Shown here: positions 24,044-27,676 of the stretch, one piece after another
Numbering within the stretch: the stretch's first letter is position 1
Layout: each line of letters starts with the position of its first letter
Source of the DNA: Terriglobia bacterium
GTDB lineage: Bacteria; Acidobacteriota; Terriglobia; Acidiferrales; UBA7541
Direction of reading: 5' to 3'
Length of the DNA stretch: 43,462 nucleotides
Assembly (NCBI GenBank): GCA_020073705.1
Contig: JAIQES010000039.1
Location: 1-43,462, forward strand
Position numbers and translations under genes: made by a program
Notes under the pieces: generated by a model
Seen by the model: only the letters and a program-made list of their open reading frames with translations
Databases searched by the model: none
Told to the model about the DNA's origin: nothing

Positions 24044-24913
24044 ATGAAACCGTCTGTCGGATTTATTGGCTTGGGATTGATGGGCCGCCCCATGGCGGCG
24101 AACCTGTTGAAAGCCGGTTACGATCTCACCCTATGGAATCGCACGGTTTCGCGCGCCGACGCCCTGGTGGCGCAAGGGGCGAAGCGCGCCGCCACACCGC
24201 GCGATGTCGCGGCGGCATCCGAAGTTGTCTTCACGATTGTCAGCGATCCCCCGGCGCTTGAGTCCGTCCTGTGGGGAGAGACCGGCGTATTTGCTGGATT
24301 GCGCCGTGGTAGTGTGCTGGTTGATTCGAGCACGGTTTCTCCGGCACTGGCGCGGCGCGCCGCGTCGGTTGCGGCTTTGCAGGGCGCCGAATTCCTGGAC
24401 GCGCCGGTGACGGGCGGAACTTGGGGCGCGGAAAAAGGCGAGCTTGTGTTCATGGTCGGCGGCGAGGCGGAAACACTCAAGCGCGTCGAGCTGGTGTTGG
24501 GCGCAATGGGCAAGCGGTGGTTTCACCTGGGCCCGTATGGAGCGGGCCAGACGGTGAAGCTCGCCATGAATCTGATCCTCGGGCTTCAGGTGGAGGCCTT
24601 CGCCGAGGCTCTAGCGCTGGTACTGCGCGGGGGAATTGCCGGAGAGCAACTCGTAGAAGTGCTACAGTCGAGCATGGGGCGCTCCGGGCTGATCGACATC
24701 AAGGCGCCGATGATGCTGAAGGGCAATTACACGCCAAGCTTTCCCCTTCGCCTGATGCACAAGGACCTGGGCCTCGCGCTTGATCTCGCCAACCAGTTGG
24801 GCGTGCCGCTGCCGGCCACGGCGGCCACGCGCGAAACCTACAGTGCTGTCAAGGGCGCTGGAAAAGAAGACGCGGATTTCTCCGTCATCGCCAGCTTCTG
24901 GCGAAAACCCTGA
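24044..24913 (+). CDS. NAD(P)-dependent beta-hydroxyacid dehydrogenase
   Basis: A 289-aa member of the 3-hydroxyisobutyrate dehydrogenase / glyoxylate-succinic semialdehyde reductase family. The Rossmann start is GFIGLGLMGRPMAANLLKAG, followed by LWNRT; an Arg at that place favours NADPH. The substrate-binding DAPVTGGTWGAEKGELV is near residue 119 and the catalytic Lys is in GAGQTVKLAMNL near 169. AGGAGGG precedes the chosen ATG; the frame extends 7 codons upstream without support. Its stop is 14 bp from the left copy of the 69-bp repeat, suggesting the DapB-fold gene at 26663 was once its direct convergent neighbour. Confidence 0.88.
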   Translation: MKPSVGFIGLGLMGRPMAANLLKAGYDLTLWNRTVSRADALVAQGAKRAATPRDVAAASEVVFTIVSDPPALESVLWGETGVFAGLRRGSVLVDSSTVSPALARRAASVAALQGAEFLDAPVTGGTWGAEKGELVFMVGGEAETLKRVELVLGAMGKRWFHLGPYGAGQTVKLAMNLILGLQVEAFAEALALVLRGGIAGEQLVEVLQSSMGRSGLIDIKAPMMLKGNYTPSFPLRLMHKDLGLALDLANQLGVPLPATAATRETYSAVKGAGKEDADFSVIASFWRKP

Positions 24914-25280
24914 GCGTCTGAACTGCCTATGGTCTTGCGCCGGGCGGGAAGAAGCACATCGGAAGGTCGCGTGAAATGCGCAGTCCCGCCGGGGCGACGG
25001 GCTTTCAGGACCCGGAAAATGGCGGCAGGGAGCCGGAGGGACCATCCGGGAGAAAATATTGTGCTCGGAGGGTCCGACTGGAGGCAAACGGATATATATT
25101 CCCAATCGCCGGGAGGCCAAAGAACTAATGCGGAAGAGGCAACGGCAGGACCGGGTTCGCCCCTGCGCCTCCGCTCCGCTTCGCAGGGCTTCGCTCCGGC
25201 TCTGGCGGCTCCGTGCCAGTCCGGTCCCACCCAAGCCAAACAACAACCTCGGAATAGACAAAACATCATAGGAGGGAATC
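24914..25280. other. Gap holding the left repeat copy and GC-rich simple sequence
   Basis: A 367-bp stretch without a confident gene. It contains the left 69-bp repeat (24928-24996) and a C/G/T-rich patch of near-repetitive sequence around 25150-25220. An AGGAGG ribosome site for the hydrolase gene lies near 25271. A frame beginning GPTGGKRIYIPNRREAKE near 25060 could be a decayed gene end, but I cannot identify it. Confidence 0.45.
24928..24996 (+). repeat. 69-bp direct repeat, left copy
   Basis: It runs from TATGGTCTTGCGCCGGGCGG to CAGTCCCGCCGGGGCG and matches 26664-26732 at 67 of 69 positions. On the minus strand it encodes the last 22 or so residues of the DapB-fold dehydrogenase, including an equivalent stop (TAG here, TAA in the right copy), but the frame is closed by a TGA a few codons upstream. 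It is therefore a gene-end remnant or a duplicated insertion flank. Both differences change an amino acid (T to I and L to F). Confidence 0.85.
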
Positions 25281-26522
25281 ATGATTTCGAAGGTGAATCG
25301 GAGAGGCTTAATCAAATGGGGGTTAATCTCAGCGGGGGTTCCTGTATTTTCGCGAGTATTGAGTTCGCCTCTTCTCGCCCAGGTTGGGGGAAGGGCGCAA
25401 GAAAAGCTCGGCTACCCCGCAACAAGAGAGGACATGCCCGGGGGAGGACAGTTAGAAATCCGGATGACAACGTCTCCTTTCACCAGCGACCCGGATGAAT
25501 TTGAAGCCTACCAACGAATCAGGCCATATAACCCGGAGTCTGTGTATGTCGAATGGGCGCGACTAGCGGAGAAGAATGAACAGATGGCGGAGAAGTTCGA
25601 GGGAGAAAAACGGATGGTCACGGCCTCGGAGTTCTATCTGCGGGCCGCGGAATTCTACCGCCGCGCGTGTGTGCGCCAAAACGAGGGTGAGCCGCGCATG
25701 GTTCCCACCTACAAAAAGTATGTGGGGCTGTTCAACAAGGCGTGGCAATTGGTGCCGCCCCCCTTTGAGCGTCTGCAAGTTTCCTATGAGGGGAAGATCT
25801 TGGACGGGTACTTCAGGAAACCTGCTGGCCCAGCAGGGCGACGCTTCCCCGTGGTAATTGAACAACAAGGAGCGGATACGAGTGCTGAAAGCAGCATTAT
25901 GGTGGGTGCTAGTCCCTACGTGGCTCGCGGTATGGCCTATTTGGTGGTAGATACCCCTGGCACGGTGGGAGCCATGCGCCTGAAAGATCTTCACGCCCCG
26001 CCGGACTCGGAAAGAATCGCCAAGATCCTGGTTGACTACGCGGTGTCGCGTCCCGATGTCGACCCCAGTCGAATCGGTATGAATGGAATCAGCTTGGGTG
26101 GCTATGGGGGGCCGCGGTCCGCCAGCGGCGAGAAGAGAATCAAAGCCCTGTGGATGATGAGCGGTGCCTACAGTTTGCTAGAAGATATTTTTGATTACTA
26201 TCCTCCGATCCGGGATCGGCTACGCTGGATCGTTGGAGCGAGGGATTTTGCAGATGCCAGGAAGAAGCTCGCTGACTTTACCCTAGAGGGGAGAGCGAGC
26301 AAGATCGAGTGCCCCATGTTGATCGGCTACAGCAACGATGACCGGATCATGGACCCACGAGGAGCTTCCAGGCTGTACCAAGCGGCGGTTAACTCGAAGC
26401 GGGAAATGCTGGAAGGCCTAGGCCACAACGTAGACGCTAATGTTGGGGGTCCACGGACTTTGCCATCAGCCGTGGTGATCCAGGCGGACTGGGCTGCCAA
26501 GCATCTGGTGGCGGGGGCGTAG
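25281..26522 (+). CDS. Tat-exported alpha/beta hydrolase (FrsA/DHPON-hydrolase-like)
   Basis: A 413-aa exported hydrolase. The N terminus NRRGLIKWGLISAGVPVFS is a twin-arginine signal. A helical lid-like domain follows (AYQRIRPYNPESVYVEWARL; about residues 60-165), then the alpha/beta core. The nucleophile elbow is NGISLGGYGG near 270, the acid lies in YSNDDRIMDP near 350, and the His in EGLGHNVDAN near 380. This architecture fits the FrsA/2,6-dihydroxypseudooxynicotine-hydrolase group; the substrate is unknown. Base composition looks lower in GC, with more AGA/AGG and GGG codons than its neighbours, and it is bracketed by 69-bp direct repeats, so it may be acquired. Confidence 0.8.
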   Translation: MISKVNRRGLIKWGLISAGVPVFSRVLSSPLLAQVGGRAQEKLGYPATREDMPGGGQLEIRMTTSPFTSDPDEFEAYQRIRPYNPESVYVEWARLAEKNEQMAEKFEGEKRMVTASEFYLRAAEFYRRACVRQNEGEPRMVPTYKKYVGLFNKAWQLVPPPFERLQVSYEGKILDGYFRKPAGPAGRRFPVVIEQQGADTSAESSIMVGASPYVARGMAYLVVDTPGTVGAMRLKDLHAPPDSERIAKILVDYAVSRPDVDPSRIGMNGISLGGYGGPRSASGEKRIKALWMMSGAYSLLEDIFDYYPPIRDRLRWIVGARDFADARKKLADFTLEGRASKIECPMLIGYSNDDRIMDPRGASRLYQAAVNSKREMLEGLGHNVDANVGGPRTLPSAVVIQADWAAKHLVAGA

Positions 26523-26662
26523 CCGTTCGATTCCGTCCGAACTGAGTTCGAGGCTACCAACTTCTGACTCAGAACATTAGGAAGATTCTTATGTGGTTTG
26601 GAAGACGTAACTCAAAACGGCGGCACTACGTATAAACAAATTTCGCAGATAGACCCCTACGC

Positions 26663-27676
26663 TTATGGTCTTGCGCCGGGCGGGAGGAAGCACATCGGAA
26701 GGTCGCGTGAAGTGCGCAGTCCCGCCGGGGCGTCTAGGATCGCCGGGATACAATTTACGACGACGGCGGCGGTGGCCATGTCACCGTGCGTGCCGCCCGG
26801 GATAGTGAGCGTCAGGGTGGGATTGCCGGTGATTTCGGCGGTATCGCCGGGTTCTGTGGCTCCGGCATACATCTGCAATTCCATGTAGATTTTTTCTTCG
26901 CCGCCAGCCAATCCGCGTGCGATCTGGAAGACACCGGCAACCTGTCCCGCCTCTACCTCAAGGAACGGGGTCGTGAGGCGCTCCCGCGCGACGACAGGCT
27001 CGATTGATTCTGTAATCACATCGACGTCCAGGCCCAGCGCGTCCGAAACCATCGCCACAGACTCGGGCAGGCCGTGATGCTTGATGCCCCCGGCCGCGAC
27101 CTGCGCGCGAAACTCTTCGACGGTCATCCCAGCACCCACTTTCTTCTGCAGCGGCAGGCGGCGCTTTGATGCGTCCACGATGCGAATCGCACGGGCCGAT
27201 TCGATCTGCTGCGAAGCGGCACTGAGCGTGATCAGAAGTTTGTCCATCACGAAACCGGGATTGACGCCTGTTCCGATCAGCGCGACGCCCCATGTTTTGG
27301 CCTCGGCATCGAGTTGCGTCACCAACTTGGGATATTTCCGGAACGGATACGCCAGCTCTTCGCAAGTCGAGACGACGCAGGATTCCGCAGCCAGGCACGC
27401 CATCAACTGGTCCATCACACTGGGTAACAGAGTGGAGGTCGAATGGATCACCACATCTGCCGATTCGGCCAGCATGGCCGCCGCATCATCAGTTACCTTC
27501 ACGCCCCACGGCGCATCCGCTGCGCCGGCCACTTCTCCCAGGTCGCGCCCCGCTTTGGCCGGATCGGTATCAATGGCTCCGATGATTTCGATGGATTTCT
27601 TTTCCCGCATCAGCCGCACGATGGCGGCTCCGATGGGACCGACGCCGTACTGCACCGCACGAATCTTTTTTTTCAT
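26663..27676 (-). CDS. DapB-fold NAD(P)-dependent dehydrogenase (2,4-diaminopentanoate dehydrogenase-like)
   Basis: A 337-aa protein beginning MKKKIRAVQYGVGPIGAAIV, with a Rossmann domain of the dihydrodipicolinate-reductase type (GAIDTDPAKAGRDLGEVAG, then DVVIHSTST). The C-terminal part is longer than DapB (GVALIGTGVNPGFVMDKLL, then GTHGDMATAAVVVNCIPAIL). This resembles 2,4-diaminopentanoate/amine dehydrogenases; a lysine-biosynthesis role is unlikely. Substrate not known. GGAG lies just upstream of the chosen ATG; a 51-residue upstream extension is rejected. Its last 22 codons form the right copy of the 69-bp repeat. Confidence 0.8.
   Translation of the reverse strand: MKKKIRAVQYGVGPIGAAIVRLMREKKSIEIIGAIDTDPAKAGRDLGEVAGAADAPWGVKVTDDAAAMLAESADVVIHSTSTLLPSVMDQLMACLAAESCVVSTCEELAYPFRKYPKLVTQLDAEAKTWGVALIGTGVNPGFVMDKLLITLSAASQQIESARAIRIVDASKRRLPLQKKVGAGMTVEEFRAQVAAGGIKHHGLPESVAMVSDALGLDVDVITESIEPVVARERLTTPFLEVEAGQVAGVFQIARGLAGGEEKIYMELQMYAGATEPGDTAEITGNPTLTLTIPGGTHGDMATAAVVVNCIPAILDAPAGLRTSRDLPMCFLPPGARP
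26664..26732 (+). repeat. 69-bp direct repeat, right copy
   Basis: This is the partner of 24928-24996, with differences at two positions. It is fully inside the 3' end of the DapB-fold gene. The copies flank 1,667 bp containing the Tat-exported hydrolase. The sequences outside both copies do not match each other. No terminal inverted repeats or transposase were found inside. Confidence 0.85.

Follow-up and report, generated by a model that had tools for sequence, protein, structure and literature searches.

We conclude that a foreign DNA fragment carrying a single hydrolase gene was probably joined, by microhomology-guided illegitimate recombination, into the 3' end of a diaminopentanoate-dehydrogenase-like gene, and that the target was duplicated in the process. 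The whole stretch of DNA analysed here (the window) is a 43-kb contig, C65, of a draft genome comprising 78 contigs and 3.79 Mb (labelled G000; the contigs of this genome cited in the text are C65, C15, C21 and C28). The host is a soil acidobacterium, and the two genes flanking the insert are household genes. The locus neatly illustrates a known and poorly understood kind of gene gain, and does not represent a new kind of mobile element. Its features are listed in the table; below, the left-flank gene is referred to as the HIBADH gene, and the right-flank gene as the DapB-fold gene.

Features of the split gene pair and of the insert, in window coordinates
Feature	Coordinates	Strand	Evidence or remark
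3-Hydroxyisobutyrate dehydrogenase / tartronate-semialdehyde reductase-like gene (HIBADH), left flank	24044..24913	+	NAD_binding_2 1.8e-51, NAD_binding_11 3.3e-32 (Pfam)
Left repeat copy	24925..24996	-	orphan fragment of the DapB-fold gene's 3' end, stop codon included; Thr->Ile, putative relic
Left-junction microhomology GCCGGGGCG	24988..24996	+	common to the DapB-fold gene end and element E (GCCGAGGCG or GCCGGGGCG)
Element E, 5'-truncated copy	24997..25133	+	similarity to dispersed copies; complete copies, in other Terriglobia families, are about 157 bp long
Insert cargo, predicted Tat-type exported alpha/beta hydrolase, 413 aa	25281..26522	+	ORF, phmmer, tree
Right end of the insert	26523..26660	.	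no gene, no match found
Right repeat copy	26661..26732	-	coding 3' end of the diaminopentanoate-dehydrogenase-like gene, stop codon included
2,4-Diaminopentanoate-dehydrogenase-like (DapB-fold) gene, right flank, intact	26663..27676	-	DAP_DH_C 2.6e-41, DapB_N 8.1e-8 (Pfam)

The insert is enclosed by a direct repeat of 72 nt (24925–24996 and 26661–26732), with 69 of the 72 positions identical (96%) and a start-to-start distance of 1736. A preliminary description had given 69-bp copies with 67 matches, and the corresponding segments (24928–24996 and 26664–26732) do differ at two positions. The repeat search yielded no comparable direct repeats elsewhere in the 43-kb window, and a 30-nt core of the repeat, with at most three mismatches allowed, had two occurrences, as against none in 100 shuffled sequences. 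The 3.79-Mb draft genome holds these two copies only, which rules out a genome-wide interspersed repeat. A structured RNA at the locus was also rejected, as Rfam gave no match up to an E-value of 1, and the fold z-scores ranged from -0.5 to -2.1.

The right copy corresponds to the final 22 codons, plus the stop codon, of the minus-strand gene at 26663–27676, and the gene coordinates together with the Pfam domains bear out its earlier reading as the coding 3' end of a DapB-fold gene. The best NCBIfam match of this gene is ornith_Ord (2,4-diaminopentanoate dehydrogenase), at 268.9 bits, under the 400-bit cut-off of that family; its orthologues in the genus are 83–87% identical. The NCBIfam matches of the HIBADH gene are under cut-off as well. 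The left copy, which had been described as an orphan fragment of the same gene end close to the HIBADH stop, indeed encodes the same peptide with two changes and lies 13 bp away. Its translation is APAGLRISRDLPMCFFPPGARP followed by a stop codon, which starts 14 bases past the HIBADH stop (24913).

The two changes between the peptides of the left and right copies are Thr->Ile and Leu->Phe. The former site is occupied by Thr in nearly all orthologues; since Ile replaces it here, the left copy would be an unconstrained relic and no echo of the assembly, and a decayed relic is indeed the best reading of its sequence. The latter site is Leu in the genus and Phe in most of the family, and this difference alone gives no direction between the copies. 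That the whole arrangement is an assembly artefact or a chimera of strains is hardly credible: the draft state of the genome, with its 78 contigs, would leave room for such an error, but there are three differences between the copies, including the amino acid change at a conserved residue, and 72 bp is shorter than usual reads. Besides, the truncation of element E and the foreign phylogeny, considered below, are explained without it, and there is a similar case in another genome.

If a segment had split a formerly convergent pair, as had been proposed, relatives would be expected to retain the two genes facing each other directly, with a single copy of the gene end. In the family, the HIBADH and DapB-fold genes often are directly convergent, at gaps of 2–390 bp (66, 87, 364 and 385 bp in the genus; 2–50 bp in many other genera), and these loci, each with a single gene end, represent the empty site. 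The hydrolase is absent from all of the relatives' convergent loci, both in the genus and in other genera; the relatives with an empty site are other species, all at no more than 90% identity. Thus, the search for directly convergent relatives that the preliminary description had advised did find the empty sites, and their presence in many relatives supports the splitting of the pair by a segment that duplicated 69 bp. In some genera, 1–15 kb lie between the two genes, with no duplicated gene end.

The insert between the repeats is about 1.66 kb long (1.67 kb had been reported) and comprises one gene in the ORF list. Its product starts with a twin-arginine motif, NRRGLIKW, in keeping with the earlier notion of a lone Tat-exported alpha/beta hydrolase. 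In phmmer the protein matches 2,6-dihydroxypseudooxynicotine hydrolase (PDB 2jbw) with an E-value of 1e-12 over residues 89–354, the GxSxGG nucleophile motif being in register (GISLGG in the window aligned with GRSLGG in 2jbw). It is under all NCBIfam and Pfam cut-offs, the FrsA-like NCBIfam match being sub-threshold, and PADLOC has no match for it. Compared with 2jbw and the FrsA-like hydrolases, the window protein adds a predicted twin-arginine export signal. The insert presumably has a function.

Homologues of this hydrolase are patchy: of 299 genomes in the class, 10 have one (E <= 1e-90). In the tree of 17 rows, the root of which is unreliable owing to one distant row (L132), the window hydrolase sits on a long branch outside a 10-row clade (support 100/99). 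This clade contains the vertical copies of the genus, including the host's own paralogue on contig C15, which is 66% identical to the window copy. The GC3 of the insert is 0.64, compared to 0.71–0.74 in the neighbouring genes. Judging by these sequence comparisons, the window hydrolase is horizontally acquired and foreign to the genus. Copying from the host's own paralogues was rejected, as these are 66% and 55% identical and match over the coding region only.

Neither the ORF list and Pfam nor the inverted-repeat search revealed a transposase, an integrase or terminal inverted repeats in the insert. The absence of a transposase and of terminal inverted repeats agrees with the earlier suggestion that the mechanism is not that of a standard insertion sequence. 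The insert would not be classed as an insertion sequence or a MITE, as its ends have no terminal inverted repeats and the duplication amounts to 69–72 bp. Several other candidates were discarded: an integron cassette, since reading of the sequence revealed no RYYYAAC/GTTRRRY attC core sites at the repeat or at the insert ends; a plasmid source for the left end of the insert, for which there was no match; and a protein remnant at the insert start, where a 33-aa in-frame similarity belongs to element E instead.

This element accounts for the first approximately 137 bp of the insert. In a survey of 399 genomes of the class, it was present in 19, mostly outside the window's family, from which it is all but absent; by similarity, it occupies 25 places in G139, 7 in G181 and 5 in G211, many of these copies being fragmentary. 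Complete copies are at least 157 bp long and extend upstream beyond the window's junction, while in the window E is truncated precisely at the left junction. The homology to E begins at 24988 and so takes in the last nine bases of the left repeat; at the junction, the sequence is GCCGGGGCG in the host gene and GCCGAGGCG in E, with GCCGGGGCG in one E copy. The consensus common to E and the DapB-fold gene is GCCG(A/G)GGCG, that is, 8–9 bp; a match of at least 8 of 9 positions has a frequency of 0.017% (1.7e-4) in random registers. Since the 8/9 match falls at the point where E is cut, we suggest that this microhomology is where the foreign DNA was united with the host gene, E being truncated by the joint. 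At the other end, nothing matched 26523–26660; on this reading, at least one of the two joints was guided by microhomology.

The left junction also bears on the order of events. The gene end might have been duplicated in tandem long ago, with the hydrolase arriving later between the copies, and insert-free orphan fragments do exist in this genome, an example being the 44-bp piece of an epimerase gene described below. Yet the left copy ends exactly where E joins, and two events at one place would be required, which makes this order of events very improbable.

Element E itself carries a TATACT-like box near its 3' end (window 24988–25133; copies in L356–L412). An ORF of at least 150 aa starts no more than 100 bp downstream on the same strand in 24 of 39 copies, and is situated divergently upstream in 5 of 39. 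The element was not found in Rfam. It looks like a promoter-bearing dispersed repeat.

Under illegitimate joining, the following course of events may be suggested. A piece of foreign Terriglobia DNA, consisting of the truncated E and the gene of the Tat-exported hydrolase, would have been captured as one fragment, and its left end would have been joined at the 8–9 bp of microhomology between E and the DapB-fold gene. On the target, the attachment points of the two insert ends would have been some 69 bp from each other, placed such that the stretch between them was duplicated, doubling the last 22 codons and the stop. The copy fused to the gene body would keep the DapB-fold gene whole, the host gene thus surviving because the target was duplicated, while the displaced copy beside the HIBADH gene would have decayed. 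As to the molecular route, the fragment may have been captured at a staggered break whose two strands were then filled in, or it may have been inserted by end joining or by template switching during repair; the donor family is likewise presumptive.

The site has independently received another insert in G017, which belongs to another genus of the window's family. There, the HIBADH gene has next to it a 43-bp orphan of the DapB-fold gene end (95%), and after this come 22 bp from the HIBADH end, joined with an overlap of a few bases. The genes of a DNA methylase and an Eco29kI-type endonuclease are next, and then the DapB-fold gene end, running off the contig. Such patchwork is typical of illegitimate joining. 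In these two cases, the only ones available for comparison, the outer ends of the duplication are both near the stop codon, while the inner ends differ (69 vs 43 bp). That the outer boundary is no more than a few bases away from the stop codon in both cases counts against illegitimate joining; an attachment site would give the same picture, and selection for an intact gene end predicts it likewise.

On another contig of G017, the full DapB-fold gene is followed by genes of a MazE-type antitoxin and a PIN toxin, so that the restriction-modification genes (L164, 3980–7876) and the MazE/PIN genes (L165, 655–2458) both border the same gene end. The inserts on the two contigs are possibly stacked insertions or strain variants. 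In G002, from the window's genus, the DNA of the intergenic gap is 68% identical to the G017 antitoxin region. An apparent orphan gene end in G008 was set aside, since it is situated 3 bp from the contig end and most likely is an ordinary gene cut by assembly.

The 3' end of a gene serves as the attachment site, and is restored by the incoming element, in the case of e14 in icd and of islands in tRNA genes. Similarly, the end of the DapB-fold gene could be an att site, at which an integrase-dependent, non-autonomous element with the hydrolase restored the gene end by its attP copy, the old end becoming the distal repeat. The window has in common with such elements a duplicated gene 3' end with the stop codon, a restored gene and small accessory cargo; a duplication of this gene end occurs in two genera; and the window's genome has 3'-end duplications of tRNA-Arg and tRNA-Met, with a tyrosine integrase by the former. 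However, there is no integrase gene on C65 or on the G017 contigs C170 and C183, and the integrase-like tblastn match is marginal and limited to one long-gap relative. The inner breakpoints of the two cases are unlike (69 vs 43 bp), a dispersed repeat is interrupted at microhomology by the left junction of the window insert, and the left end in G017 is a patchwork with pieces of the HIBADH gene. Site-specific integration thus appears unlikely, though it keeps some weight, as both integrase-type and non-specific fragment duplications occur in this genome.

Such duplications were collected in a census of two-copy repeats (at least 35 bp, at least 85% identity, no more than 12 kb apart) in 1.12 Mb sampled from the window's genome, and few were found, among them the following. 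On contig C28 (L341, 10891–12552), 1.57 kb with a single PD40 beta-propeller gene lie between two identical 47-bp copies of the tRNA-Arg(tcg) 3' end, the tyrosine integrase gene being on the other side of the tRNA gene. On contig C21 (L335, 5718–5766 and 17035–17083), the tRNA-Met 3' end is duplicated over 49 bp, with 11.3 kb between the copies, likely a genomic island. Finally, a 44-bp epimerase orphan directly follows a glycosyltransferase stop on contig C28 (L338, 7270–7313), with the intact epimerase copy about 1.2 kb away.

The same anatomy would arise in one step by homology-facilitated illegitimate recombination, if a linear fragment came from a close relative already holding the hydrolase beside the DapB-fold gene and recombined homologously within the DapB-fold gene on one side and illegitimately on the other. 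In this case the left relic would be the recipient's own gene end, and the Phe of the left copy against the Leu of the genus would fit, as the two copies could stem from two strains. On the other hand, the first insertion is only moved to an unseen donor, and the hydrolase is absent from this site in the other loci of the family where both genes are convergent on one contig. We consider this route quite unlikely.

The closest known counterpart of direct illegitimate joining is insertion with long target duplication (Nobusato, Uchiyama, Ohashi and Kobayashi 2000, Gene 259:99), which is cited in PMC1643837 and also treated in PMC3031569, where the target duplications are long and variable. Inserts of this kind have a duplicated target, an empty site in relatives and no transposase, and their classic cargo, frequent and not required, is a restriction-modification system. 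The window shares with these insertions a long direct target duplication (72 bp, 96%), an empty site in relatives and the lack of a transposase, integrase or terminal inverted repeats; the G017 case carries the classic restriction-modification cargo. In contrast, the insert in the window carries just one exported hydrolase, the host is acidobacterial, and one junction has microhomology to a dispersed repeat. The window case is therefore best filed as an insertion with long target duplication, with non-restriction cargo and one readable junction.

The entry of single genes without mobility machinery into bacterial chromosomes is mostly unobserved, and here one junction is seen at the base level. 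If more convergent gene ends match, there would be a testable mechanism, beyond restriction-modification, for insertion with long target duplication. A broader and rather doubtful generalization would be that small cargo (a hydrolase, restriction-modification genes, perhaps a VapBC-like toxin-antitoxin pair) lands repeatedly at the 3'-to-3' junction of these two convergent household genes, caught by microhomology joining that duplicates the gene end and thereby spares the host gene, with E supplying both the microhomology and a promoter for the cargo.

Two contigs labelled as Betaproteobacteria and Bacillota (L084 and L059) carry an acidobacterial gene at about 70% identity, and these labels look wrong.
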